From Lachnospiraceae bacterium (GTDB taxonomy: Bacteria > Bacillota > Clostridia > Lachnospirales > Lachnospiraceae), in contig JAEETA010000003.1 in the NCBI GenBank assembly GCA_016286555.1, forward strand, positions 1-64,000: DNA of 64,000 nucleotides. Direction: 5' to 3'. The notes beneath the pieces are model-generated. The model was not told where the DNA came from, made no database searches, and saw only the letters and a program-made list of their open reading frames with translations. Positions 20,295 through 33,389 of the stretch are shown piece by piece (position 1 is the stretch's first letter; every line of letters starts with the position of its first letter). The position numbers and the translations under genes are program-made.

Positions 20295-21659
20295 GTGAAG
20301 ATAGAGCGCGGTTCTCTTCGCTACAACTTCATCATGAACACCCTGCTCCAGGGCTCCGCGTGGCTGATCCCCTTCGCCATCAGACCCTACGTGTCCAGGA
20401 TCCTTCTGCCGGATGGCATGGGACATGTGGGTTTTGCCATCAGCCAGCTGTACTATTTCATCCTCATTGCAACCCTGGGAATCCCCACCTACGGGATCCG
20501 GGAATGCGCCAGAGTCCGGGAGGATCCCGAGGTTCTGCGGCGTACGGTGCGGGAGATCCTGTGCATCAACCTGGTGATGGGTGCAGTGGCTTACGCATTG
20601 TATTTTGGCTATGTCTTCGGCTTTGCGGGGGCGGAATATCGCACGCTGCTGCTGGTGATCAGCCCCGCCATTTTGCTGAACGTCATCAATGTGGACTGGT
20701 TCTACAAGGGTCTGGAGGACTTTCGCTCCATTGCCTTTCGGAACGTGGTGGTGCGGCTGTGCGCAGCCATCGCCATCCTCCTCATGGTGAAGGGTGCGAA
20801 TCAGCGTCCTCTGTACGGATTCCTAAGTATCCTGTCCTCCTACGGAGCGGGCCTGTGGAATCTGCTGGGGGTAAGTCGCACCATGAAGCGGGTGCGCGCC
20901 GAGGCTGCGGCGAGAAAAGCTGCTGCTGCGGAAGAAGCAGAGGGGAAGGGGTTGAAGGTCAGTGCCTCCCAGGAAAAACGGGCCGCCGCCAGAAAGCGCA
21001 AGGCCGCGGAAGCGGGAGCAAAGCGACACCTGCGCCCCATCATGGTTTTCCTGGGCATGAGCATTGCCACTGCCATTTATACGCAGTTGGATGTGGTGAT
21101 GCTTGGCTTTATGCAAAATGACAACGTCGTCGGAATCTATGATGCTGCCGCTGCGGTAAAAATCATTCTGGTGGCTGCAGTCACTGCTCTGGGAGCGGTG
21201 CTTCTTCCCAGAGTCAGCGCCCTGCTTTCCGCAGGGAAGCGCGGGGAATTCCTGAGGCTGAGCCGGAAGGCCATTCTGTATGTGGCCGCTTTCGGACTGG
21301 CACTTATGGTAGGAACCATCCTGTGCAGAAACGGCATCATCCTGGTGATGTCCGGCAGGGAATTTACGGCAGCAGGAGAGGTGTTGCTGCTCCTGGCCAT
21401 GACCATTCCCCTCATCGGCTACACCAACATCGTGGGCATGCAGATGCTGGTGCCGCTGGGCAGGGAAAAAGCGGTGCTGGCTTCGGAGATCGCAGGTGCG
21501 GTGACGGATTTTGTACTGAACCTGATCCTGATCCCGGGATACGGCGCTGCGGGCGCGGCCCTGGCCACGGTCCTTGCGGAGTGCGTGGTAGCGCTGTGGC
21601 AGACTTTTTGCTGCAGAGCGGAGATCAAGGAAGCCTTTGCGGCAAAGAAAACCGCATAA
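20295..21659 (+). CDS. Polysaccharide flippase (Wzx/PST, MATE-like superfamily)
   Basis: The 454-residue protein has about 12-14 membrane helices and the usual opening of oligosaccharide flippases: LLQGSAWLIPFAIRPYVSRILLP followed by GFAISQLYYFILIATLGIPTYGIRE (both read over several helices). It should flip undecaprenyl-linked repeat units. A central cytoplasmic loop (about residues 200-250) is unusual: about 45 residues very rich in Ala, Lys, Arg and Glu. The GTG start has AGAGG about 7 bases upstream. It is downstream of a GT2 and upstream of large membrane proteins, as expected in a Wzx/Wzy-type locus, although no clear Wzy polymerase was recognised. Confidence 0.9.
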   Translation: MKIERGSLRYNFIMNTLLQGSAWLIPFAIRPYVSRILLPDGMGHVGFAISQLYYFILIATLGIPTYGIRECARVREDPEVLRRTVREILCINLVMGAVAYALYFGYVFGFAGAEYRTLLLVISPAILLNVINVDWFYKGLEDFRSIAFRNVVVRLCAAIAILLMVKGANQRPLYGFLSILSSYGAGLWNLLGVSRTMKRVRAEAAARKAAAAEEAEGKGLKVSASQEKRAAARKRKAAEAGAKRHLRPIMVFLGMSIATAIYTQLDVVMLGFMQNDNVVGIYDAAAAVKIILVAAVTALGAVLLPRVSALLSAGKRGEFLRLSRKAILYVAAFGLALMVGTILCRNGIILVMSGREFTAAGEVLLLLAMTIPLIGYTNIVGMQMLVPLGREKAVLASEIAGAVTDFVLNLILIPGYGAAGAALATVLAECVVALWQTFCCRAEIKEAFAAKKTA

Positions 21660-21664
21660 AAAAC

Positions 21665-21697
21665 AGCAAAAAAACATGCACCCATGAAGGTGCATGT
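21665..21697 (-). terminator. Intrinsic terminator for the VanZ-like gene
   Basis: ACATGCACC (21674-21682) pairs with GGTGCATGT (21689-21697). On the minus strand a U-rich run follows (the A run at 21668-21674 on +), so it ends the leftward transcript. Confidence 0.85.
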
Positions 21698-21774
21698 CGT
21701 ATGAAACAAATGCAGGTGCGGGTCCCCGGGAAAGGCTTTGCAGGGAATGCCCCGAGGGAAGCGGCCGGGAGTGG

Positions 21775-22242
21775 TTACTTTCTGTGCTCCGGAGGATTGG
21801 AATGCCGATCTGCGGGAGCGGGCGCTTCCGGATCCTCGTGCTTGGCAGTGGCCGAGCGGATCATGTCCCGGATGATGTGGTAGATTTCCCGGAGAAGCGC
21901 AAAGAGCAGGAACATCAAAAGGAACCCGCCGATGCCGGCCACGATGTCCGCGAACTCCATGGTCCCGGTTCCGGTGGCCCCCTGGCCGATCTCGATGGCA
22001 AAGGTGAGGCCCAGGATCAGGGTAAAGACATAAAGCCATGCGATGACCATGGTGTGGCCCTTTTTTGCAAGGTTCCTGAACAGGGGATAGCACACGAAGA
22101 TCCCAATCATCCCCAGGATACCGATGACCAGAAAATGCAGTTGTTTGTCGGAAAAATGAGCCTCGTAGGAGTCGTTTAAGTGCAGCAGGCGGCTGTGCCA
22201 GAGACCGATGTACTCCACGAGTTTTGTCAGCAGTTTTTTCAT
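21775..22242 (-). CDS. VanZ-like membrane protein
   Basis: The 155-residue protein has four hydrophobic helices and the sparse VanZ signature: SDKQLHFLVIGILG, then FAIEIGQGATGTGTMEFADI, then GIGGFL. VanZ proteins are small membrane proteins, linked in one case to teicoplanin resistance; their activity is not known. The C-terminal 30 residues are hydrophilic and rich in Pro, Glu, Ala and His. The start at 22242 (MKKLLTKL) is chosen because a consensus promoter ends just 6 bases before it. The open frame upstream of this ATG overlaps the divergent gene and is not credible. It is the only leftward gene in this part of the locus. Confidence 0.65.
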   Translation of the reverse strand: MKKLLTKLVEYIGLWHSRLLHLNDSYEAHFSDKQLHFLVIGILGMIGIFVCYPLFRNLAKKGHTMVIAWLYVFTLILGLTFAIEIGQGATGTGTMEFADIVAGIGGFLLMFLLFALLREIYHIIRDMIRSATAKHEDPEAPAPADRHSNPPEHRK

Positions 22243-22248
22243 ACGGGC

Positions 22249-22278
22249 ATTATAGTCCCGGAGAAGGATAATCGTCAA
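22249..22278 (-). promoter_or_regulatory. Consensus promoter of the VanZ-like gene, probably leaderless
   Basis: On the minus strand TTGACG (22278-22273), an 18-base spacer, and TATAAT (22254-22249) are followed by six bases and the ATG. The expected start of transcription is the A of the ATG. No ribosome binding site can exist in such a transcript. Confidence 0.75.
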
Positions 22279-22279
22279 A

Positions 22280-24253
22280 TTGAGAGACACGGAGAAGCAA
22301 AAACTGAATAGGATCTGCCTGATCACGGCGATGATTCTGACGCTTGCGTCGTTTTTGATCATCCGTGCAAAGTACTCCTTCGTGCCGGAAGCCAACGACG
22401 ATGCCGTGATCCGTTCCATTCTGTCGGGGAACTACACCGGCACGCCGGATGCGCATGCGATCTACCCCGAGTATCCCCTGGCGCTCATGATCTCGGGACT
22501 GTATCACATCTTCCCGAAGGCGGACTGCTACAGTACGGTCATGGTGGGATTTTTCTTCCTGGCGCTCTTCGAGATCCTGCGGTCCGGCGGTCTCCTGGGA
22601 ATGCATATTTTCCCCGGGAAAAATGCGGCGGACACGGGAGTGAGCATGCGGGCGAAGCTCCTGGGCATGGCGGTGGGAATGCTTCCCGGCGTGGGAATCT
22701 TCCTGGCGGTCTTCCCGCATGCGGCAGTGCTGCATTATACCTTTACCTCCGGGATGTTGGGGGCGGCTGCCATTTTGGCGCTCTGTGCGGAGGATCGTCC
22801 CGATGAAGGGGGAATGAAAGGAGCGCTGCTTTGGATCGGTTGCTTTAACCTCCGGTCCCAGATGGGATATTTGCTCATGCCCTTTTTTCTCCTTACCGTG
22901 CTTTGCAATTTCCTCCGTTACCGGAAGAAGGGATGGCTGTTCTCCCTTCCCATGATCCTGCTTTTTTATCTCTTTACGTTGACGGCGGAATCCATCGGAT
23001 ACCATACCGAGAGCTGGAAAATGTTCCAGAAGTACAATGATGTGCGGTCGGAACTCTATGATTACGCAGTGATCCTGCCCTACGAGGAGGCGGAGGAGCT
23101 CTACGACGAAGCCGGTATCAGCCCCGAGGAAGTCGCCATCTTCCGGGATTACAATGTGGCATTGCTGCGGGTGGATCCTTCCCAGGAGAGCATGGGGGGC
23201 TTCAATGCGGATGATGTGGAATACATGCGGGCCAGAACGGAGCTTACGGAGAAGGTGCTGCAGGTGGCAAGAAAGGCGGAGGCTCTGCGGGAGAAGCCGG
23301 GCTTCGGGGAAGAGCTGGACCTGTATCTCTACGAGCTGCGGTATTTGGGGAAGCCGCTGGACTATCAGTATCCCAGTTCCTATGCGCCCTATAACCTGAT
23401 GGCGGGGGTTCTGTATCTGCTCCTGCTGGCACTGTTTGTGACGAATCCGTCATTTTTGACTGCTTTTGAGGGGATTTCCCTTTTTCTCGGAAGGACGCTT
23501 TTGTGGCTCTATCTCTATCATGGAGACAGAACGCCGGTGCGCGTGATGCTTCCGCTGTACGTGGGAGAACTGGTGGTGCTGGTTGCCTTCGTGCTGCAGG
23601 AGAGCGCCATTGTCTTCGCCGCAGGCGAAACGAAGAGCGGAACCCCTGTCCGGGTGTCCGCACTTACCATCGAATCCGAGACAGTGAAGGCTCCGAGGGC
23701 CGCAAAGCTGTCTGCGGTGCTGAAGCGCCTGGATGCTTTCGGCAGCAGGCTGGTGGCGCGGGAGGAGCATTTGAGCGATCGCGGGAAAAAGGTGCGTGGA
23801 TTCCTGCAGACAGGCGGCATTCTGCTTTTTGTGATCGCTGCGCTGTACTACCTGCCGGCCCAGGCGGGGAATCTGCAAAAAGAGTATGCGCTCCGGGAGA
23901 GGACCAACGAATCCTTTGCAGCTGCCCTGGATCAGATCCGCTCGGATCCAGGCACCCTGTATTTTGCGGACATCTATACGGTGGTTTCCTACACCGAGCG
24001 GTGCTTTGAGAAGGGCGTTCCCGGGAATGCACTGCTGCTGGGCGGATGGACGGAGCCCGGCGGGCTCTATGCCGGCAGACTGGGCGGGAGAGATGCCATG
24101 ACCCGGATCCTGGAGGGGGCCCCTCTGATCATCGATTCGGAGGAACGGCTGGAGCATATGACGGAATATTTTGCTTCCTGTGGCTACGAAGGGGTGGAAT
24201 GGGAGGAAATCTCCCCCGGCATCTACCGGGTGCGGGAGCCTCTGAAGGGATGA
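22280..24253 (+). CDS. Large polytopic membrane protein, unknown family
   Basis: The 657-residue protein has helices at about residues 10-30, 65-90, 115-180, 205-240, 370-410 and 510-530, and an extracytoplasmic C-terminal domain. An acidic pair near the N-terminus (PEANDDAVIRSILSG) follows helix 1, as in GT-C type transferases and the GtrII-like glucosyl transferase group. I do not recognise the exact family. Its TTG start has GGAGAAGGA about 11 bases upstream; the first in-frame ATG is 52 bases further. Its start overlaps the -35 box of the divergent VanZ-like gene, so the two may influence each other. It is followed by a similar gene, with a 113-base gap. Confidence 0.65.
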   Translation: MRDTEKQKLNRICLITAMILTLASFLIIRAKYSFVPEANDDAVIRSILSGNYTGTPDAHAIYPEYPLALMISGLYHIFPKADCYSTVMVGFFFLALFEILRSGGLLGMHIFPGKNAADTGVSMRAKLLGMAVGMLPGVGIFLAVFPHAAVLHYTFTSGMLGAAAILALCAEDRPDEGGMKGALLWIGCFNLRSQMGYLLMPFFLLTVLCNFLRYRKKGWLFSLPMILLFYLFTLTAESIGYHTESWKMFQKYNDVRSELYDYAVILPYEEAEELYDEAGISPEEVAIFRDYNVALLRVDPSQESMGGFNADDVEYMRARTELTEKVLQVARKAEALREKPGFGEELDLYLYELRYLGKPLDYQYPSSYAPYNLMAGVLYLLLLALFVTNPSFLTAFEGISLFLGRTLLWLYLYHGDRTPVRVMLPLYVGELVVLVAFVLQESAIVFAAGETKSGTPVRVSALTIESETVKAPRAAKLSAVLKRLDAFGSRLVAREEHLSDRGKKVRGFLQTGGILLFVIAALYYLPAQAGNLQKEYALRERTNESFAAALDQIRSDPGTLYFADIYTVVSYTERCFEKGVPGNALLLGGWTEPGGLYAGRLGGRDAMTRILEGAPLIIDSEERLEHMTEYFASCGYEGVEWEEISPGIYRVREPLKG

Positions 24254-24366
24254 TGCCGCGATAGAAGCACAGAAGGACTGCGGACGGGTACCGATGCACG
24301 GAAGGCAGGGGCTCCCGGGAAAGCAGATGGATACAAAGGGATCAAGCACAGAGATCGGAGACTGGA

Positions 24367-26322
24367 ATGTTGGAAAAGATGAAAGCCCGGATCACCGGAC
24401 TGCTGACGGACAAAAAAACAAGGAATGCGCTGATAGTACCGGGGGCAGTATTGCTGCTTCTGATCCTGATGAGTGCCTTCTATATGGAGCATTGGATGGA
24501 GTCGGATTTTGCTGCGGAGATGATCTTCTCCAAACTGATGTCTGAGACCGGCCATTACATCGCAACCCCCGACTGGTATTATTCCACGGAGTATCGGCTG
24601 TTCTATACCCAGCTCATCATGGTGCCCCTCTTTAAGTTCATGAAGAGCTGGACCGCCATCCGTGTCATTACCAACATCGTGTTTTACGGGATCCTGCTGG
24701 CATCCTATGCATTCATGGTAAAGCCTCTGAAGGCAAAAACCGAGCGGAAGATCCTTTTTGCGGCGCTGCTGCTGGTTCCTTTTTCTGAGACCATGGCACA
24801 GCACATGCAGTTCGGCAACACCTACATCGCCCATGTGATCCTTATGTTCTGGAACATCGGGCTGGTGCTGCGGCTGGCCTTCGAGCAGGATCGCTTGAAG
24901 CTGCAGGATAGGGAGACACTTGCCGCCGGCAGCGGCTGGCAGATCTGGTACCTGTGCGCGCTGACCGTGCTGGCAATGGTGTGCGGTGCTTCCGGCGTGC
25001 GGTATTTCCTCTCTGTGTATGCGCCCCTTCTGGTGGCAGGCCTGTGGCTCATTTTCCGGGGAGAGCATTTCCGTGCGTTGCTGGATGCAGACGAGCGCCC
25101 CACTTTCCGCGGCCTGATCCGTGATCTCCGCGATGTGTACATGTCCCGGGAGGCAGGGATCTTTAGAAACTCCCTGGGTGCATCCGCCATCGCTTTCATC
25201 GGATACCTGTTCAATGTCACTTATATCCGCAGCCACTTTATCTTCACCACCTATGAAGACCTGAACTTTATCCGCGTCATCAACGGGGAGCTCTTCCGCA
25301 GGATCGAGAACTCCATCGGAAGCTTCCTGGAACTTATGGGCTATATCCCCGACCGCGGGGTCTTAAGCCTCCGCGGCTTCATCACCCTGCTGTCCTTCGT
25401 CATGATCGTGGTGGGAGTGGTGGTGATTGTTTCCGTACATCGTCAGCTGCGGAATCCTTTTGTGCCGGACTATGACGAGGATATCGAGTATGTGGATCTG
25501 GAGGACGCCGGAGCTGCCCGCACTGAAGCTGAAACGAGTGCGCTTTTCGAGGAAGATGCTGCATATGAAGATGACAGCGAGTCCATGGATCCGAGTGATG
25601 GCGTGGCAGCTGAGGCGGATGTGGAAGAAGAAGTGATCTCAGGCGAAGAGCCCGGCTACGACGAAGACATTGAATATGTGGACTTCGGCGGACCCGTTGC
25701 AGTGGCAGATGTTGACGATACCAACCTCATCGACCGCTTCTTCCTGGCTCTCTTCCACAGCGCATTTATCATCATGACTTTTGTGCTGGTATTCACTTAT
25801 ACCACCATTACTCCCAGGTACTACTTAATGCCCCTGGTCCTGATCCTGCCCCTCCTTCTGATCTACGACAGAAGAGAGGTAAAGCCCTTCCGCAAGGACC
25901 TTGTTCTGTGGATCCTGACCCTGTCCATGACCATTGCCGGAGCCAAGATCCTCTACTCCATGGCGACCGTGGATAAAAATGCGGACCGCAGCGCAGCCGC
26001 TGCCTACCTGACGGAAAACGGATATACCTTCGGCTACGCCATGTATGATGATGCAAACATGCTGGAAGAACTGACGGACGGCGCCCTGGAGGCTGCCGGC
26101 ATCCGCCTCGAAGACGGTGCCGTCAAGTACTTCCGCTGGTCCTCCCCTGCCGCCTACTACGAACCCACCTACGCCACCGGCCCCGTCTTCCTCCTCCTCA
26201 CTACCGAAGACTACGCCGCTAACTCCGACGCGTCTGCTGTCGCTGCGGGTACTATCGTTTATGATCAGGATGGATACGTCATTCTAGCTTACGATTCGCC
26301 GGAGGCATTGAGGGAAGAGTAG
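24367..26322 (+). CDS. Large polytopic membrane protein with acidic loop
   Basis: The 651-residue protein has about ten membrane helices. The N-terminal loop after helix 1 reads HWMESDFAAEMIFSKLMSE, again an acidic periplasm-side loop typical of GT-C-like enzymes. Between helices near residues 370-445 lies a long acidic, low-complexity loop whose two ends carry the same motif YDEDIEYVD (bases near 25470 and 25653). The C-terminal 110 residues are extracytoplasmic. GGAG lies 6-9 bases before the ATG. No named family is assigned. It ends just before the paired hairpin units. Confidence 0.65.
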   Translation: MLEKMKARITGLLTDKKTRNALIVPGAVLLLLILMSAFYMEHWMESDFAAEMIFSKLMSETGHYIATPDWYYSTEYRLFYTQLIMVPLFKFMKSWTAIRVITNIVFYGILLASYAFMVKPLKAKTERKILFAALLLVPFSETMAQHMQFGNTYIAHVILMFWNIGLVLRLAFEQDRLKLQDRETLAAGSGWQIWYLCALTVLAMVCGASGVRYFLSVYAPLLVAGLWLIFRGEHFRALLDADERPTFRGLIRDLRDVYMSREAGIFRNSLGASAIAFIGYLFNVTYIRSHFIFTTYEDLNFIRVINGELFRRIENSIGSFLELMGYIPDRGVLSLRGFITLLSFVMIVVGVVVIVSVHRQLRNPFVPDYDEDIEYVDLEDAGAARTEAETSALFEEDAAYEDDSESMDPSDGVAAEADVEEEVISGEEPGYDEDIEYVDFGGPVAVADVDDTNLIDRFFLALFHSAFIIMTFVLVFTYTTITPRYYLMPLVLILPLLLIYDRREVKPFRKDLVLWILTLSMTIAGAKILYSMATVDKNADRSAAAAYLTENGYTFGYAMYDDANMLEELTDGALEAAGIRLEDGAVKYFRWSSPAAYYEPTYATGPVFLLLTTEDYAANSDASAVAAGTIVYDQDGYVILAYDSPEALREE

Positions 26323-26339
26323 GTACACAGTTTGGACGC

Positions 26340-26486
26340 GGTCCGTGCCCATATTTTCCGGTTCGGACACGCTTCCGCTTGGTTTTTTGCACGCAGCGGT
26401 ACTAAACTCGCTACGCCTGACGGCTAAGCTCGTCAAGTACCGGCGGCAAAAGACAGTCCTCACCCGGATAAATATGGTCCCGGACC
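26340..26486. repeat. 147-bp structured hairpin unit, left copy
   Basis: The ends pair (GGTCCG 26340-26345 with CGGACC 26481-26486; CCATATTT 26349-26356 with AAATATGG 26470-26477), and inner stems such as CGGTACT (26397-26403) with AGTACCG (about 26436-26442) follow. It aligns with the reverse complement of the right unit at roughly 70 percent by eye. Confidence 0.75.
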
Positions 26487-26570
26487 TCTTGCTACAGAGT
26501 CCGTATGTTCTGATAGTCGTTGTCCCGAAGCAAAGTTCTATGAAGGTCGCTTGCAGTAGTTTTCATCATG

Positions 26571-26717
26571 CCCGGGAAGGCATATACCCGGCGTGAGGAC
26601 AATGTTTTTCCGTCGGTACTTGCTCGAATAAGCCGACAGGCGCGATTCGAGCTTAGTACCGCTACGTGAAAAACCTTAACGGGAGTGTGTCCGAACACGG
26701 GTATATGCCTAGCCCGG
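26571..26717. repeat. 147-bp structured hairpin unit, right copy (inverted)
   Basis: Stem set: CCCGGG (26571-26576) with CCCGGG (26712-26717); GGCATATACCCG (26579-26590) with CGGGTATATGCC (26698-26709); GGACA with TGTCC; GTTTTTC (26604-26610) with GAAAAAC (26668-26674); CGGTACT-t-GCTCGAAT (26614-26629) with ATTCGAGC-tt-AGTACCG (26645-26661). The 84-base spacer between the units (26487-26570) has no gene. The whole 26323-26762 gap holds only this structure. Confidence 0.8.
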
Positions 26718-26762
26718 GCTGGTAGAACCCTACTAAATCTTGAAGGAATAACATCACTAAGT

Positions 26763-28535
26763 ATGGATACAAAAAAGCAACTCTCCACCGCCTACTACAT
26801 CGGTGTTGCAATCTTAATACTGGCCCTTCTGGCAACTGACAGTATCCTCATCGCCCGCCGAGAAGGCTACCACATGGACGAGATCCTCTCCTACGAACTC
26901 TCCAACGCAGAGTTCACCCCCTGGATCACTCCCATCCAGCCCGAAGGCCGTCTCGAGAAATACTACCGCGAGATGATCAGGGGAAACGGCATCCGCGAGA
27001 CCTTTTCCAATTTGTTTGCCCAGGTCAGCGACGTCCTCACAAGGAGATCCGCCTCCACCGCAGCAAACTATAAAGCCGATGTCTACGACGAGCCCGTGTG
27101 GTTTTCCGCAGATGACATTCATGACTACGTAACCTACGACAGCGAGGACAGCGTCCCCATCCTGTCCCCCTACTACAACTCCACCACCGATAACCACCCG
27201 CCCCTCTACTTCATCCTCGTGAACATCTTCAGCGTATTCGCGGGAGACAGCTTTTCCCAGTGGCCCGGCTCCATCCTCAACATGCTCTTCCTCGTGGCCG
27301 GCGTTCTTATGCTCCTCCGCCTTTTTGCGAAGGTCTACGGCAAACCTTACCTGGGATTGGCGGCAGCGGCTATGTACGGATTTTCCGCGGCGGGCATCAA
27401 CTCCGTCATGCTCATCCGCATGTATATAATGGTGGTTTTCTGGTGTCTGACCGTTATGTGCACCACCCTGGAGAAGCTTCACGCAGCCGAGGCCGGAGCG
27501 GAAGAGTCCCCCTTCGCGAAGCATAACAAACTCCTCATCTGGGGCACCGCTTTAGGATTCCTGAGCCAGTACTTCTTCTGCTTTTTTGCACTGATGCTGG
27601 CGGGCTGCACCATCGTAAGACTATTCAGAGCGGGACGGAAAAAGGACATCCTCTACTACCTCCGCTCCAACGCTTTTGCGGCACTGGCAGGACTTCTCCT
27701 GTACCCCTTCGCATTTCATGATCTCCTCCACACCGACCGCGGCGTGGAAGCCCTGGAGAGCATGACTTCCGGCCTGTCCGGATTGGCGGGACACATGGGA
27801 GACTTTGCACTGATCACCATCAAGGAGACCCTGGGAGGATGGATCGGATTTGCCGTATTTTTCCTCCTCATCGCGGTCCTCATTACCATCCGCTTCCCGG
27901 AAGGGACGGTGAAAAATATCATTACCCCCGCGGTCTGCTTCCTTGGGTACTTCCTCATCGTCAGCCGCGTGGCGCCCTATCAGGTGGATCGCTACATGAT
28001 GCCTGCGTTCCCTATGATCGCAGTGATCTTTGTACTGTTGCTGGACGCACTCCTCGTAAGGACCGGGGAGCTCATCCGGAACGGAAAGGGGGAAGCCCTG
28101 GAGATCCCGCCCCGTTTGAGAGGAGCTGTTCTCGCGTTGGGACTCCTCCTGGTGCTGCCGGGGCTGTTAATCCATTTTGACGATCAGGAATACTCCTTCC
28201 GGGGGTATAATACCCAGGTCGCGGTGGCGGATTCCTACGCGGATCTGGACTGCATCTGCATCCATCCCGGGTACGGTTTTTACCGGAATGTGCCGGAGAT
28301 GATGCGGTATCGCAACTCTCTCATTACCAAGGAAGAGGAGCTGCTGGAGCGGGTCTATGACCAGCGGATCGTGGATGATACTGAGATGATCCTCATCTGC
28401 GGCAATGGCGTGGACCGGGAGAAAATGCTGGAATACATGAGTTCCTGGTACGGATTTACCGAGAGCGAAGTGCTCTTGCAGGAAGGCATCTACGGCGATA
28501 CGATCCTCCGGATCGCAAAGCCGGAGGCAAAATAG
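26763..28535 (+). CDS. Membrane glycosyltransferase, GT-C/family 39-like
   Basis: The product is about 590 residues with some twelve helices. The first extracytoplasmic loop begins GYHMDEILSYELSN; an Asp-Glu pair after helix 1 is the catalytic-type motif of GT-C enzymes using polyprenyl-phosphate sugars. A later loop has NSTTDNHPPLYFILVN, the His-Pro-Pro-x-Tyr motif common in family 39/ArnT-like proteins. The start at 26763 has AAGGAA upstream. It lies 15 bases before pseC. It probably transfers a lipid-linked sugar to a surface glycan or protein. Confidence 0.78.
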   Translation: MDTKKQLSTAYYIGVAILILALLATDSILIARREGYHMDEILSYELSNAEFTPWITPIQPEGRLEKYYREMIRGNGIRETFSNLFAQVSDVLTRRSASTAANYKADVYDEPVWFSADDIHDYVTYDSEDSVPILSPYYNSTTDNHPPLYFILVNIFSVFAGDSFSQWPGSILNMLFLVAGVLMLLRLFAKVYGKPYLGLAAAAMYGFSAAGINSVMLIRMYIMVVFWCLTVMCTTLEKLHAAEAGAEESPFAKHNKLLIWGTALGFLSQYFFCFFALMLAGCTIVRLFRAGRKKDILYYLRSNAFAALAGLLLYPFAFHDLLHTDRGVEALESMTSGLSGLAGHMGDFALITIKETLGGWIGFAVFFLLIAVLITIRFPEGTVKNIITPAVCFLGYFLIVSRVAPYQVDRYMMPAFPMIAVIFVLLLDALLVRTGELIRNGKGEALEIPPRLRGAVLALGLLLVLPGLLIHFDDQEYSFRGYNTQVAVADSYADLDCICIHPGYGFYRNVPEMMRYRNSLITKEEELLERVYDQRIVDDTEMILICGNGVDREKMLEYMSSWYGFTESEVLLQEGIYGDTILRIAKPEAK

Positions 28536-28549
28536 GGAAAGGAGATCCT

Positions 28550-29779
28550 ATGAGCAACGAAGAAATGAAAGAAAATCCCACAAATATTCCCGCCATTGCA
28601 GGCGGTACTCCCATCCGTCAGGGAAAACCGACCCTGTATTACGGAAAGCAGCTGGTGGAGGAGGATGATATCCAGGCAGTAGCCGAGGTGCTGCGGAGCC
28701 CTGATATCACCTGCGGCCCCAAGATCAGTGAGCTGGAGGAAGAACTTTGCCGTGTGACTGGTGCCCGCTATGCCGTGGCCTGTTCCAACGGCACCGCAGC
28801 CCTGCACATGGCATGCATGGCAGCCGGCATCACCAAGGGAGATGAGGTCATCGTATCCTCCCTGACCTTTGCAGCTTCCGCAAACTGCGTTCTGTACTGC
28901 GGCGCTACTCCTGTTTTCGCGGATATTCGGGAAGATACCTACAATATTGACATTGAGTCAATAAAAGAGAAGATCACTCCCCGCACCCGTGCCATCATCG
29001 CGGTGGACTTTACCGGCCAGGCGGTACAGCTGAAAGAGATCCTGGCCCTGTGCAGAGAACACAGACTCCTCCTCATCGAGGATGCGGCTCATTCCCTGGG
29101 AACCAAGTACATGGGACGCCCCGTGGGCTCCATTGCGGACATCACCACCTTCAGCTTCCATCCGGTGAAGACCGTGACCTGCGGCGAGGGCGGTGCCTGC
29201 ACCACCAACAATACCGAGATCGCTCTGAACCTGGCGCTGCTCCGTTCCCATGGCATCACCCGGAACAAGGATATCGAAAGACACCCCAGCGACGATCCCT
29301 GGTACAACGAGCAGGTACTTCTGGGCTTCAACTACCGCATGACCGATTTCCAGGCGGCAATGCTCCTGAGCCAGTTGAAGAAGCTGGATCGTTTCGTGGC
29401 AGCCAGAGCAGCCATTCGGGAAAAATACAACAAGGCATTTGCGGACATCCCGCAGCTCATTCTCCAGACCAACATTCCGGAGTCCGAGACGGCGCAGCAC
29501 CTCTACATCCTGCGGCTGAATGCAAAGAAGATCTCCTGCAACCGGAGACAGTTCTTCGATGCGCTGTGCGCCGAGGGAATCCATCCCCAGGTGCACTACC
29601 TGCCGGTGTATCGCCATTCCTTCTACGAGTCCATCGGCTATGCGCCCAACGAGTGCCCTGTGGCCAACAAGATCTACTACGGCATCGTCAGCATTCCCCT
29701 GTATCCCGCCCTTACGGAAGAGGACACGGATGATGTCATCGCAGCTGTAAAGAGGATCTGCGAGTACTTCGCTATCTAA
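28550..29779 (+). CDS. pseC: UDP-4-amino-4,6-dideoxy-N-acetyl-L-altrosamine transaminase type (DegT/DnrJ/EryC1)
   Basis: The 409-residue PLP aminotransferase has IPAIAGGTPIRQGKPTLYYG, then YGKQLVEEDDIQAV, SNGTAALHMACMAAG, ATPVFADIREDTYNID, the PLP Lys in SFHPVKTVTCGEGG and LGFNYRMTDFQAAML. The segments LYCGATPVFADI and RSHGITR...WYNEQ favour the pseudaminic acid aminotransferase PseC over other sugar aminotransferases. It should aminate the 4-keto UDP-sugar with glutamate as donor. AAAGGAGA lies 5-7 bases before the ATG. It heads the pse gene group. A bacillosamine/legionaminic route enzyme (PglE/LegC) is the main alternative. Confidence 0.88.
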   Translation: MSNEEMKENPTNIPAIAGGTPIRQGKPTLYYGKQLVEEDDIQAVAEVLRSPDITCGPKISELEEELCRVTGARYAVACSNGTAALHMACMAAGITKGDEVIVSSLTFAASANCVLYCGATPVFADIREDTYNIDIESIKEKITPRTRAIIAVDFTGQAVQLKEILALCREHRLLLIEDAAHSLGTKYMGRPVGSIADITTFSFHPVKTVTCGEGGACTTNNTEIALNLALLRSHGITRNKDIERHPSDDPWYNEQVLLGFNYRMTDFQAAMLLSQLKKLDRFVAARAAIREKYNKAFADIPQLILQTNIPESETAQHLYILRLNAKKISCNRRQFFDALCAEGIHPQVHYLPVYRHSFYESIGYAPNECPVANKIYYGIVSIPLYPALTEEDTDDVIAAVKRICEYFAI

Positions 29780-29801
29780 AGCTTAAGGCAGGGAACCTAC
29801 C

Positions 29802-31418
29802 TTGAATCTGAAAGAAAAAATCGTCAAGTGCATAGAGATCCTCCTCCTGCTTGCAGGCGGCTTCCTGACAGCCTTTTTCTACAGGCTGCAGATGAAATTC
29901 TCCGTCTGGAACACCCTGGGAGAGGAGAAGATCCACATCGATCTGCAGAGCATGAACCGGCAGATCGGCGGCATTGTGGCTGTGGCAGTGATGATCGCTG
30001 TGTCATATTTCCTGCTGCGAATGCTGAGAAATAAGGGCTGCGACCGTCTACCCGGAAGCTGGGTTGCGGTATTTACCGGGCTCTACGCTCTGGTGCTTTT
30101 CCTCTGGATCGCACTGCTGAAAATGCCCCTGATCCCGGACGATACGGGTCTTTGCTACTCCAGCGCGGAAGCCATTTTCCTGAACAATTTCACGGATTAT
30201 GCTTTTGCAAAGGATTACCTCAGTCGCTGTCCCCAGCAGCTGGGCATCGTCAGCATCGACCTGCTGGGCATGCGGTTCATGGGAGAAAAAGCAGATCTCT
30301 TTTTCCAGGGGATCAACGCGCTGCTGCTGATCCTGGCGTATCTGGCGGGAGCGCGGCTGACGGGCGACCTTTCCGAGCGGTTTGAAAATCCCCTGCCGGA
30401 GCTTCTGTGGCTGATCTTCGGACTGCTGAATGCACCCGTGATCTGCTATGTGAATTACCTCTACGGCGATGTGGCGTGCCTCAGCGCCATGCTTATCGGG
30501 ACCTGGGCACTGACGGAGTACATGAAGTCCCGAAAAATGGCCTGGCTGGCGGTACTGCTTCCCATTACCGCTGTGGGCACATTGCTTCGAATGAACACGC
30601 TGGTCTTTGTGATTGCGGCGGTACTGGTTCTTCTGCTGCAGGCCTTTCTGGACAGGCGTCCGGCCCATCTGGTGGCAGTATTTTTGCTCCTGGCTGCGGC
30701 CCTTCTGCCCTCGCCCATCCTGCGGTCCGTGTATGACCGGAACCCGGAGCTGTACTTTAACGGCGGGATCCCCAATTCCCTCTACATTGCCATGGGACTC
30801 CATGACAGCTGGGTGGGGCCGGGATGGTATGATGATTCCAACCGCACCGTGTATCTGGAGACGGACGGCGATATCGAGCAGTGCAGGGAGATCGCCCGCG
30901 CAGACATTTCTGCAGCGCTGGACAGATACAGAGAAGATCCTGCCTATGCGAAGGATTTCTTCTATCGCAAGGTCCTGACCCAGTGGGCGGAACCCTCTTA
31001 CGGATCCATTTTCTGCTGTCTCTATTGCGGGTCCGAAAATGAGAAGGCGGCGGGCTTTGTCAACGAGCTGGTCTACGGGAAGGCAAACGGGCCCTACCGC
31101 ACATGGCTTGGGATTTTCCAGGGGATCCTTTACGCGGGGATGTTCCTGGGAGCACTTTTTGAATTGTTGGAACTCCTCACCGGAAAACGGGAGCCGGATC
31201 TCGTGCGGATCCTGCCCTGGCTGACATTGCTGGGAGGATTTTTGTTCAGTATTTTGTGGGAGGCCAAAAGCCGTTATATCATGGAATATGTGGTCCTCCT
31301 GATCCCCTATGCGGCCATCGGCTACGGAGAACTGGTGCGGCGGCTTTCGCAGCTGCGCGTCTCCGGGGGCGTAAGCGTCCGCAGGGATTCCGGAAACGGA
31401 AAAGACAGAAAGCACTGA
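29802..31418 (+). CDS. Polytopic membrane glycosyltransferase, GT39-like
   Basis: The 538-residue protein has about twelve helices. The loop LKMPLIPDDTGLCYSSAEAI has the Asp-Asp pair of GT-C enzymes, and the C-terminal WEAKSRYIMEYVVLLIPYAAIGYG is like the end of Gram-positive mannosyltransferase-type membrane proteins. Start is TTG with only a weak AGGGAA upstream. It lies inside the pse group, 22 bases after pseC and 54 bases before the dehydratase, so it is likely co-expressed. The hydrophilic stretch at about residues 330-410 should face outside. Confidence 0.75.
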   Translation: MNLKEKIVKCIEILLLLAGGFLTAFFYRLQMKFSVWNTLGEEKIHIDLQSMNRQIGGIVAVAVMIAVSYFLLRMLRNKGCDRLPGSWVAVFTGLYALVLFLWIALLKMPLIPDDTGLCYSSAEAIFLNNFTDYAFAKDYLSRCPQQLGIVSIDLLGMRFMGEKADLFFQGINALLLILAYLAGARLTGDLSERFENPLPELLWLIFGLLNAPVICYVNYLYGDVACLSAMLIGTWALTEYMKSRKMAWLAVLLPITAVGTLLRMNTLVFVIAAVLVLLLQAFLDRRPAHLVAVFLLLAAALLPSPILRSVYDRNPELYFNGGIPNSLYIAMGLHDSWVGPGWYDDSNRTVYLETDGDIEQCREIARADISAALDRYREDPAYAKDFFYRKVLTQWAEPSYGSIFCCLYCGSENEKAAGFVNELVYGKANGPYRTWLGIFQGILYAGMFLGALFELLELLTGKREPDLVRILPWLTLLGGFLFSILWEAKSRYIMEYVVLLIPYAAIGYGELVRRLSQLRVSGGVSVRRDSGNGKDRKH

Positions 31419-31472
31419 CGGCCGCCCTGTGCGGCTGAGCGAGGCGCCGGAGGCGCTTTGCGGGGAGAAACT

Positions 31473-33389
31473 ATGAGCAACCTTTGGAAGGATTTTTTCA
31501 CAAAAGCACCGAATACGAAATTCACCAAGATCCCCATTGTGCGGATCCTGGCCCTGATATTCCTGGACATCATGACGAGCCTGACCTGTTCCTTCATGGC
31601 CATCTATATCAGGTATGATTTCCGGATCACCGATATCGAGAAACGGTTCTGGGACGCTTATGTGGCGGGGATCCTGCCCATCATCCTCATTACCCTGGGA
31701 TGCTTTGCGATATTCGGACTTTACAATTCGGTGTGGCGCTACGCCAGTGCCAACGAGCTGGTGAAGATCGTGGTTTCCACCCTCATCGCGGCGTTGCTGT
31801 TCCTTGCAGAGAGCAGGCTGACGCACCACTATCTGCCCAGAAGCTACTATCCCTTCTACTGGGTGTTCATGATGATTGCCACCTGTCTGGTGCGTTTCGG
31901 CTACCGGATCTTGCGACTCATCAATGCCAAGCGCAAGGACCTGTTCTCCCACAGTGAGATCTCCAACGTGATGGTGGTGGGTGCCGGTGCTGCGGGCGAT
32001 ATGATCCTGAAGGAAATCGAGAGCAGCAGGTATCTTGCGATGCAAGCCCGCTGTATCATCGATGACAACCCCGGCTGTCACGGCAAGAAGATGCGCGGCA
32101 TTCCCATCGTGGGAGATCGGAATGACATTCCCAAAGCCGTGGAAAAATATCAGATCGACGAGATCATTTTTGCCATTCCTTCCGCAAACGTTCAGACCAG
32201 GAAGGAGATCCTGGAGATTGCCAAGGAGACGGGCTGTAAACTGCGTACCCTGCCGGGTATGTACCAGCTCATCAGCGGCGATGTGTCCGTGGCAAAGCTG
32301 AAGGACGTGGACATCGAGGATCTGCTGGGCAGAGAACCGGTGAAGATCAACAATGACGAAGTCCTGAAGATGGTCATGGGCAAGAAGGTGCTGGTCACCG
32401 GCGGCGGCGGCTCCATCGGAAGCGAGCTTTGCCGGCAGATTGCAGCCCACGATCCCGCACTTTTGATCATTTTCGACATCTACGAAAACAATGCTTACGA
32501 CATCCAGCAGGAGCTGATGCGCAAGTACCCTTCCCTGAATCTGGAGGTACTCATCGGATCTGTCCGTAACACCGCAAGGGTGGAGAGCATTTTTGAAAAA
32601 TACCGTCCCGACATCGTTTACCATGCGGCAGCCCACAAGCATGTGCCGCTGATGGAGGCCAGCCCCGGCGAGGCCATCAAGAACAATGTCATGGGTACCT
32701 GGAAGGTGGCCCAGGCGGCGGACAAATACCATGTGGAGCGCTTCGTGCTGATCTCCACTGACAAGGCTGTCAATCCCACCAATGTCATGGGTGCTTCCAA
32801 GCGCATCTGTGAGATGGTGATCCAGATGATCAACCTTCACTCCGAGACCGGATTTGTGGCGGTGCGTTTCGGCAACGTGCTGGGCAGCAACGGCAGCGTG
32901 ATCCCCCTCTTCAAGCAACAGATCGCAGAGGGCGGCCCCGTGACGGTGACGGATCCCGAGGTCATCCGCTACTTCATGTCCATCCCCGAGGCCGTGAGTC
33001 TGGTGCTGCAGGCAGGTGCCTACGCACAGGGCGGAGAGGTTTTTGTCCTGGATATGGGCAAGCCCATGAAGATCGTGGACCTGGCGGAAAACCTCATCAA
33101 ACTCTCCGGTTATCGTGTGGGAGAGGACATTGAGATCCGTTTTACGGGCCTGCGTCCCGGTGAAAAAATGTACGAAGAGCTGCTGATGAAGGCCGAGGGT
33201 CTGAAGCAGACGAAAAACGAGCTGATCTATGTGGGAGAGCCCATTCCCTTTGACGAGAAGGTGTTCCGTGAGCAGCTGCAGCGCCTGGAAGATGCGGTGG
33301 CCACGGAGGATGTGGACATCCGGCCTCTCATCCGGGAGATCGTTCCCACCTATCATTACGAAGATAAGGAACCGGAGGCAGAAAAGTAA
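31473..33389 (+). CDS. Membrane UDP-GlcNAc 4,6-dehydratase (CapD/PglF/WbpM family)
   Basis: The 638-residue protein has four N-terminal membrane helices (to about residue 140), a first Rossmann-like part with MVVGAGAAGDMILKEI, and the dehydratase domain with GGGGSIGSELCRQI near residue 310. The active-site segment STDKAVNPTNVMGASKR shows the methionine in place of the usual tyrosine that is typical for this family. FTGLRPGEKMYEELL closes it. It oxidises and dehydrates UDP-GlcNAc to the 4-keto-6-deoxy sugar. In a pse group one would expect a soluble PseB; this retaining-type enzyme feeds bacillosamine or legionaminic routes elsewhere. ATG 31473 has GGGAG 7 bases upstream. Confidence 0.93.
   Translation: MSNLWKDFFTKAPNTKFTKIPIVRILALIFLDIMTSLTCSFMAIYIRYDFRITDIEKRFWDAYVAGILPIILITLGCFAIFGLYNSVWRYASANELVKIVVSTLIAALLFLAESRLTHHYLPRSYYPFYWVFMMIATCLVRFGYRILRLINAKRKDLFSHSEISNVMVVGAGAAGDMILKEIESSRYLAMQARCIIDDNPGCHGKKMRGIPIVGDRNDIPKAVEKYQIDEIIFAIPSANVQTRKEILEIAKETGCKLRTLPGMYQLISGDVSVAKLKDVDIEDLLGREPVKINNDEVLKMVMGKKVLVTGGGGSIGSELCRQIAAHDPALLIIFDIYENNAYDIQQELMRKYPSLNLEVLIGSVRNTARVESIFEKYRPDIVYHAAAHKHVPLMEASPGEAIKNNVMGTWKVAQAADKYHVERFVLISTDKAVNPTNVMGASKRICEMVIQMINLHSETGFVAVRFGNVLGSNGSVIPLFKQQIAEGGPVTVTDPEVIRYFMSIPEAVSLVLQAGAYAQGGEVFVLDMGKPMKIVDLAENLIKLSGYRVGEDIEIRFTGLRPGEKMYEELLMKAEGLKQTKNELIYVGEPIPFDEKVFREQLQRLEDAVATEDVDIRPLIREIVPTYHYEDKEPEAEK

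Follow-up and report, generated by a model that had tools for sequence, protein, structure and literature searches.

Two facing hairpin units within a run of polysaccharide genes

The window (the whole stretch of DNA that was analysed, 64,000 nucleotides from contig JAEETA010000003.1 of a Lachnospiraceae bacterium) contains a run of polysaccharide genes at 20295-33389, and a pair of hairpin units, U1 and U2, is found within this run (Table 1). As the preliminary description of this DNA had it, the two units have equal length and face each other in inverted orientation around a spacer of 84 bases; their coordinates hold. Neither of the two flanking genes, here called A and B, has a Pfam match, and the two small open reading frames that overlap the units (83 and 98 amino acids) are taken as spurious. 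A scan of the window region around the units found no promoter-like site and one terminator-like site (26232-26250), which lies outside both units. Rfam has no gathering-score match in the window, and over 26200-26850 there is none at E-values up to 5.

Table 1. Features at and around the pair of units. R1 is the covariance model of the repeat family; G010 is a relative that shares the site.
Feature	Position	Strand	Remarks
Polysacc_synt	20295-21659		Pfam match, polysaccharide run
Flanking gene A	24367-26322	+	651 aa; context only; ends 17 bases before U1
5' end motif of U1, GTTTGGACGC	26330-26339	+	Resembles GGGACGC ends elsewhere (by eye); conserved in G010
Unit 1 (U1)	26340-26486	+ (model strand +)	Palindromic hairpin; folds; R1 match 26356-26469, 103.7 bits
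Spacer between facing units	26487-26570	.	84 bases; orientation same in G010
Unit 2 (U2)	26571-26717	- (model strand -)	Palindromic hairpin; folds; R1 match 26587-26701, 90.4 bits
Flanking gene B	26763-28535	+	590 aa; context only; ATG 45 bases after U2
DegT aminotransferase	28550-29779		Pfam match, polysaccharide run
Polysacc_synt_2	31458-33389		Pfam match, polysaccharide run

When each unit is compared with 200 dinucleotide shuffles, the plus strand of U1 folds at -67.9 kcal/mol (z -5.88) and the minus strand of U2 at -83.0 kcal/mol (z -9.17), with 0 of 200 shuffles equally good in either case; the opposite strands of both units likewise fold far better than their shuffles. This agrees with the hairpins that had been described for each unit, and the outer stems also differ between the units and still pair, as had been described. 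U1 and U2 are homologous: as inverted arms they are 72-88% complementary, and they share 76% identity over query positions 26-140. For this reason, a single long hairpin is an alternative fold of the locus: with RNA parameters, the single U1-U2 hairpin (-188.9) beats two hairpins (-67.9 and -86.1), and with DNA parameters the values are -100.6 for the long hairpin versus -32.1 and -47.2 for the two.

The units belong to a dispersed repeat family of Lachnospiraceae

U1 and U2 are related copies of a non-coding repeat family that is dispersed between genes in many Lachnospiraceae. BLAST identified further copies of the units in their own genome, and a covariance model (R1, 114 positions) was made from 16 hand-picked copies of six genomes of the genus. 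The preliminary description had proposed such a model for finding further copies, and had named a lack of copies and of covariation as what would speak against a selected fold; both copies and covariation were found. R1 identifies 8 copies in the own genome and, at E<=0.01 and with strict filters, matches in 29 of 31 genomes of the genus. Outside the genus, 2 of 4 genomes of the family match by the same measure, and 0 of 24 from other families of the order. At E<=1e-5, at least 138 of 397 family genomes and at least 123 of 334 genera have a match, a lower bound because scoring was limited to 9 candidates per genome, with strict filters. A pattern scan of species genomes returned at least 118 stretches with mostly Lachnospiraceae titles; the other titles were Clostridia, Clostridiales, Firmicutes, Eubacterium/Eubacteriaceae, Butyrivibrio, Coprococcus comes and plain 'bacterium'. 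Long palindromes are usually unstable; those of this family persist across many genera. No description of the family was found among the papers listed on Lachnospiraceae and Clostridiales repeats, in a search that lay mostly outside subscription journals and preprints. The phage and plasmid collections have no match to the window's pair, and carriage by phage or plasmid was set aside on these grounds.

In each unit, a hairpin core roughly 110 bp long and asymmetric in its fold sits on self-complementary arms, which measure from about 20 to more than 100 bp. The core contains a mini-hairpin, a bulge of two bases and mismatches that are conserved; on the model strand, the order of elements in the window's type is GGAC, mini-hairpin, TTTT, CACGTAGCGG, CTAA and a variable tip, followed by TAAG, CCGACG, AAAA and GTCC. 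Outside the core, both the sequence and the length of the arms are variable while pairing is retained, and the best conserved part of the units is the centre rather than the ends. End motifs recur in several genomes, with GGGACGC at the 5' end of many of the compared units; in the window's genus the ends are AGTNACGG-like and U1 carries TTTGGACGC, while the outer end of U2 (the right end of the pair in the window) has no GGACGC motif (all by eye). The exact core pattern is also present in one viral contig of IMG/VR (L344:2490-2555), which may be host DNA.

Base pairing is conserved, and neither strand stands out

The base pairing of the repeat family is well supported. Across 114 distinct copies (alignment A3), 94.5% of the cells are paired, double changes are found in 17 of 22 pairs, and doubly changed cells number 579, whereas shuffles yield 194 on average and slid controls never exceed 138; A3 was fitted to R1, which favours the pairing score, and relatedness between copies inflates the counts of double changes. 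The compensatory change that had been noticed between the outer stems of U1 and U2 is thus found in the family as well.

A functional RNA is usually demonstrated by covariation, and a selected structured RNA family is the main rival to the explanation that we propose below. The units would be transcribed, alone or within mRNAs, and be bound or cleaved (by RNase III, for instance) to stabilise or attenuate the upstream message; the strong covariation with conserved internal loops would then reflect selection on RNA. On the model strand, G-U cells outnumber A-C cells (81 versus 38), in favour of an RNA. However, a single pair contributes 38 of these 81 G-U cells, and in 78% of 115 copies it is the complement strand that has the better fold, so that neither strand stands out. 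Fold energy and G-U counts conflict, and the assignment of a sense strand from either was rejected; a selected RNA may act from either strand. There is also no Rfam family for the units.

Genomic context and the order of neighbouring units

The context of the units was analysed with 149 units from 118 loci, of which 119 units are single. The gaps that hold units are tandem in 61, convergent in 21 and divergent in 7 cases (background gaps: 141, 36 and 43), and divergent gaps are thus under-occupied (7/89 versus 43/220, Fisher P 0.011). Single units with co-directional neighbours are closer to the upstream stop in 41 of 57 cases, and U1 itself starts 17 bases past the stop codon of gene A. A position just past stop codons and the low number in divergent gaps are what an RNA that acts on the upstream message would predict. 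Against such an RNA, the units have no orientation preference: 29 single units between co-directional genes are oriented with the genes and 28 against (40 of the 119 single units had no usable gene context).

The preliminary description had also considered a structured RNA pair or a switch tied to the two flanking genes. Among the 21 fetched loci with gene B, R1 units are present only in the own genome and in G010. In 12 other genomes of the genus (L231-L241; G022 in L246/L247), a homologue of gene A directly precedes gene B, R1 finds no unit between the two, and the gaps, where viewed in unit-free genomes of the genus, are short. An RNA or switch specific to this locus is therefore not supported, in line with the even orientation of the single units, and no gene-specific role of the repeat is visible.

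Units are often arranged as facing pairs, and close neighbours have a nearly fixed order: of 15 neighbours within 400 nt, 13 are facing, 2 are in tandem and none is back to back (P 9e-7 for the facing order versus a one-in-four expectation), and the matches listed in the R1 search of genus and order include at least 18 additional facing pairs and no other close order. This order would suit a classical miniature inverted-repeat transposon, with the pairs as deleted transposons that have hairpin ends and are served by a transposase in trans, and the single units as solo ends. The recurring end motifs, which in pairs place the 5' ends on the outer side (by eye), the closely similar copies at different places of one genome (G012) and the existence of sites with and without a unit (see below) point in the same direction. 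We nevertheless consider this explanation quite unlikely: it is the centre of the units and not their ends that is conserved best, most sampled units are single (119/149), no recurring transposase-like cluster exists among the neighbouring genes, and no transposase-like gene is enclosed by the pairs with longer spacing (L084, L125, L174). By eye, these longer-spaced pairs enclose either ordinary genes or none that is recognised, and an autonomous element was rejected. A recurrent partner gene was rejected too: when 755 open reading frames from the 118 loci were clustered, the largest cluster covered at most 9 loci, and the leading sequences contain, by our own reading, no transposase. Of the decayed mobile element that had been proposed at first, the mobile type of the element is supported; a mere common transposon remnant, which had been named as a refuting outcome, is not shown, as no transposase is linked to it.

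Two further repeated stretches are found in G012: a second, longer hairpin repeat of about 260 bp with TTAGTGACGG-like ends, which lies beside a unit (L188:25-286) and has more copies in G012, and the stretch L188:1428-1600, also with further G012 copies.

Units come, go and turn round in place

Presence of a unit at one and the same site varies between relatives, which argues against a selected RNA. An orthologous site is occupied in G010 (L025) and unoccupied in the window's genome (G000, L013), and a second one is occupied in G140 and unoccupied in G455; no clear target-site duplication was seen by eye at these two unoccupied sites, which would count against the miniature transposon. At a locus that is common to six genomes of the genus, one unit type is left/+ in G006, G028, G002 and G026 and right/- in G015, and the spacer is not inverted despite this change of slot; in G026 the core of the second unit was lost between short direct repeats (all by eye). 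Likewise by eye, the core of U1 in the window corresponds to the core of the other slot in G010, and the arms follow the site.

In close relatives, units are also inverted in place, which also speaks against a selected RNA. Of 18 comparisons between orthologous units of G140, G451 and G452 (genus g111), whose flanks are collinear and 89-99.9% identical, five show an inverted unit, each at its own locus (5 of 13 loci). This count covers 20 copies of G451 and G452 from the higher-ranking matches of the search, together with the search loci themselves; among the fetched sequences, five of the 15 copies in G140 (L366, L367, L372, L375, L377) have no ortholog, and the crosswise comparisons of the two-unit loci L399, L400, L407 and L408 as well as the redundant L437/L447 were left out. 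The core of L371/L407 reaches 95% of the maximum score when inverted and 21% when collinear. In L376/L408, imperfect inner arm segments have switched sides along with the core, and the break points must therefore lie within the arms. The segment of L378/L447 is badly mapped (157 versus 229 bases) and the inversion there rests on a separate comparison. Flipping is the surprising part of our data and rests on draft assemblies: all genomes compared for inversion are drafts, and repeats can be misplaced in such assemblies.

The window's genus provides a further case: G001 and G017 have a unit at the same site (L018:1446-1598, L019:1316-1468) that is inverted and 99.3% identical in flanks that are only 84% identical, and because of this contrast the case is not explained by simple inversion. 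The units of two other comparisons in this genus (L004/L315, L306/L309) are collinear. Inversion of the spacer had been suggested for the window's own site; in G010, the one relative that shares this site, the spacer has the same orientation and no inversion is seen, and what has been inverted in relatives is the unit itself.

A dedicated recombinase that moves and flips units in place, with the folded core as its substrate, could also account for in-place inversion and for the changes of slot. Integron attC sites follow such a folded-strand logic: their structure is kept, the stem sequence is free and unpaired marks are conserved. The Lachnospiraceae repeat appears analogous in that it keeps its structure and its unpaired marks while the stems change freely; unlike at attC sites, neither an integrase nor cassette genes nor attC core sites were seen with it on incidental inspection. 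We think a dedicated recombinase very unlikely, as flipping from arm to arm needs no such enzyme and no candidate was found. Y1_Tnp genes are present in 9 of the 31 genomes of the genus, not including the window's genome, and R1 has no match within the 15 Y1 loci; mobilisation by RAYT proteins was rejected on this basis.

Conserved cores and a proposed re-matching of their arms

In G140, 15 copies share a core of about 108 bp that is 90-100% identical, 8 of them at 97% or more, and two of these cores are identical over 108/108 positions. The arms of the same copies are related but different and 81-100% self-complementary (for example 25/25, 27/28 and 24/24); cores are thus more alike than arms within a genome. 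Insertion of the core into unrelated palindromes was rejected, since the arms show relatedness among themselves and the two unoccupied sites have no arms (by eye).

We propose, with a probability of roughly 0.6, that the pair in the window is an insertion of a Lachnospiraceae-wide non-coding palindromic DNA repeat, similar to REP dimers or to bcr1, with a core that flips and arms that are matched anew. Hairpins that form during replication would provoke template switching, or recombination of one arm with the other, and this would flip the core and re-match the arms; ectopic gene conversion could make the cores of a genome alike, and an activity provided in trans would move the units. That template switching makes the arms of inverted repeats alike and inverts the spacer has been published (PMC8604942), and compensatory changes can arise in this way (PMC8794818). 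If cores are flipped and arms re-matched, much of their compensatory change needs no selection on RNA, and the turning round of units in relatives may help to explain why stems change and still pair. The conserved unpaired features of the core imply recognition by something, and it is likely that a protein recognises the core. Given the in-place inversions and the missing orientation preference, we consider a selected RNA unlikely.

Several observations do not fit the proposed flipping and re-matching well. In 16 comparisons of g111 arms with 353 pairs, 325 pairs are unchanged, 11 are broken on one side, 9 have changed to G-U, 2 have changed on both sides and are broken, and only 6 of the 28 changed pairs are double changes that are still paired. 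The nearly fixed facing order (13/15) is hard to square with units that flip freely and independently, which would scramble it. Template switching alone does not explain how the core has been kept over many genera, nor the contrast in identity between the inverted unit (99.3%) and its flanks (84%) in G001 and G017; and neither a mobilising enzyme (in the neighbour clusters) nor a clear target-site duplication (at the two sites) was found. A new class of mobile hairpin DNA, with a folded-strand core of about 110 bp that is moved and turned by a putative enzyme and arms that are rewritten to be complementary at each site, is a speculative and rather unlikely extension.

The combination of strong covariation, in-place inversion and absent orientation preference makes the family a test case for the extent to which template switching between palindrome arms can imitate selection on RNA, and calls for care when RNAs are sought in gut Firmicutes. 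The family also points to a putative mobiliser to look for.

Comparison with known repeats

REP sequences and their dimers (BIME/REPIN; GTAG and CGTC super-families) are palindromic and intergenic, lie between unidirectional or convergent genes, downstream of coding regions, and often occur as dimers whose facing members can fold together into one large hairpin; the ends are unrelated in some RAYT families (PMC3733652). The Lachnospiraceae repeat is similar in its intergenic position, in its preference for tandem and convergent over divergent gaps and in its facing neighbours. It differs in size and shape (an asymmetrically folded core of about 110 bp, and units of about 147 bp in the window, versus a REP palindrome of 20-40 bp), in the absence of a constant GTAG or CGTC foot tag (by eye, GTAG is inside the core stem and the foot varies), in having no link to RAYT-type Y1 transposases and in its in-place inversion. 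The terms Clostridi, Firmicutes and Lachnospir never occur in the main text of PMC3733652. By size, tag and RAYT link the repeat is not a REP, and we file it as a variant of interspersed palindromic repeats.

The bcr1 and other repeats of the Bacillus cereus group are interspersed, non-coding and 100-400 bp long, have mobile features and are restricted to one group, with up to 130 copies of bcr1 (PMC6542083). The Lachnospiraceae repeat is likewise interspersed, non-coding, of this size range, mobile in character and group-specific, a likeness by description; the TTTAT motif of the B. cereus repeats was not seen in it, and the host group differs. The reported cases of template switching likewise have arms made alike, an inverted spacer and compensatory double changes, but they concern yeast coding genes and RNA genes rather than a dispersed bacterial repeat family (PMC8604942 and PMC8794818).

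Variants of the unit

Some copies deviate from the common anatomy. In four copies of G032 (L264, L266, L267, L268), the tip is replaced by a multibranched fold in which the module CTTAGCGA...TGAGCTTAG is repeated; Rfam returned only chance-level matches for these copies. In L265 of the same genome, two CTAA...TTAAG module hairpins lie next to what, by eye, appears to be the terminus of a 23S rRNA gene. An extra hairpin is found in the bulge next to the mini-hairpin in L009:3994-4110 and L027:126-240. Finally, the units in L084:1720-2091 and L017 are nested within long palindromes with GGGGAC...GTTTC arms, which may resemble the ends of RAYT-linked repeats.
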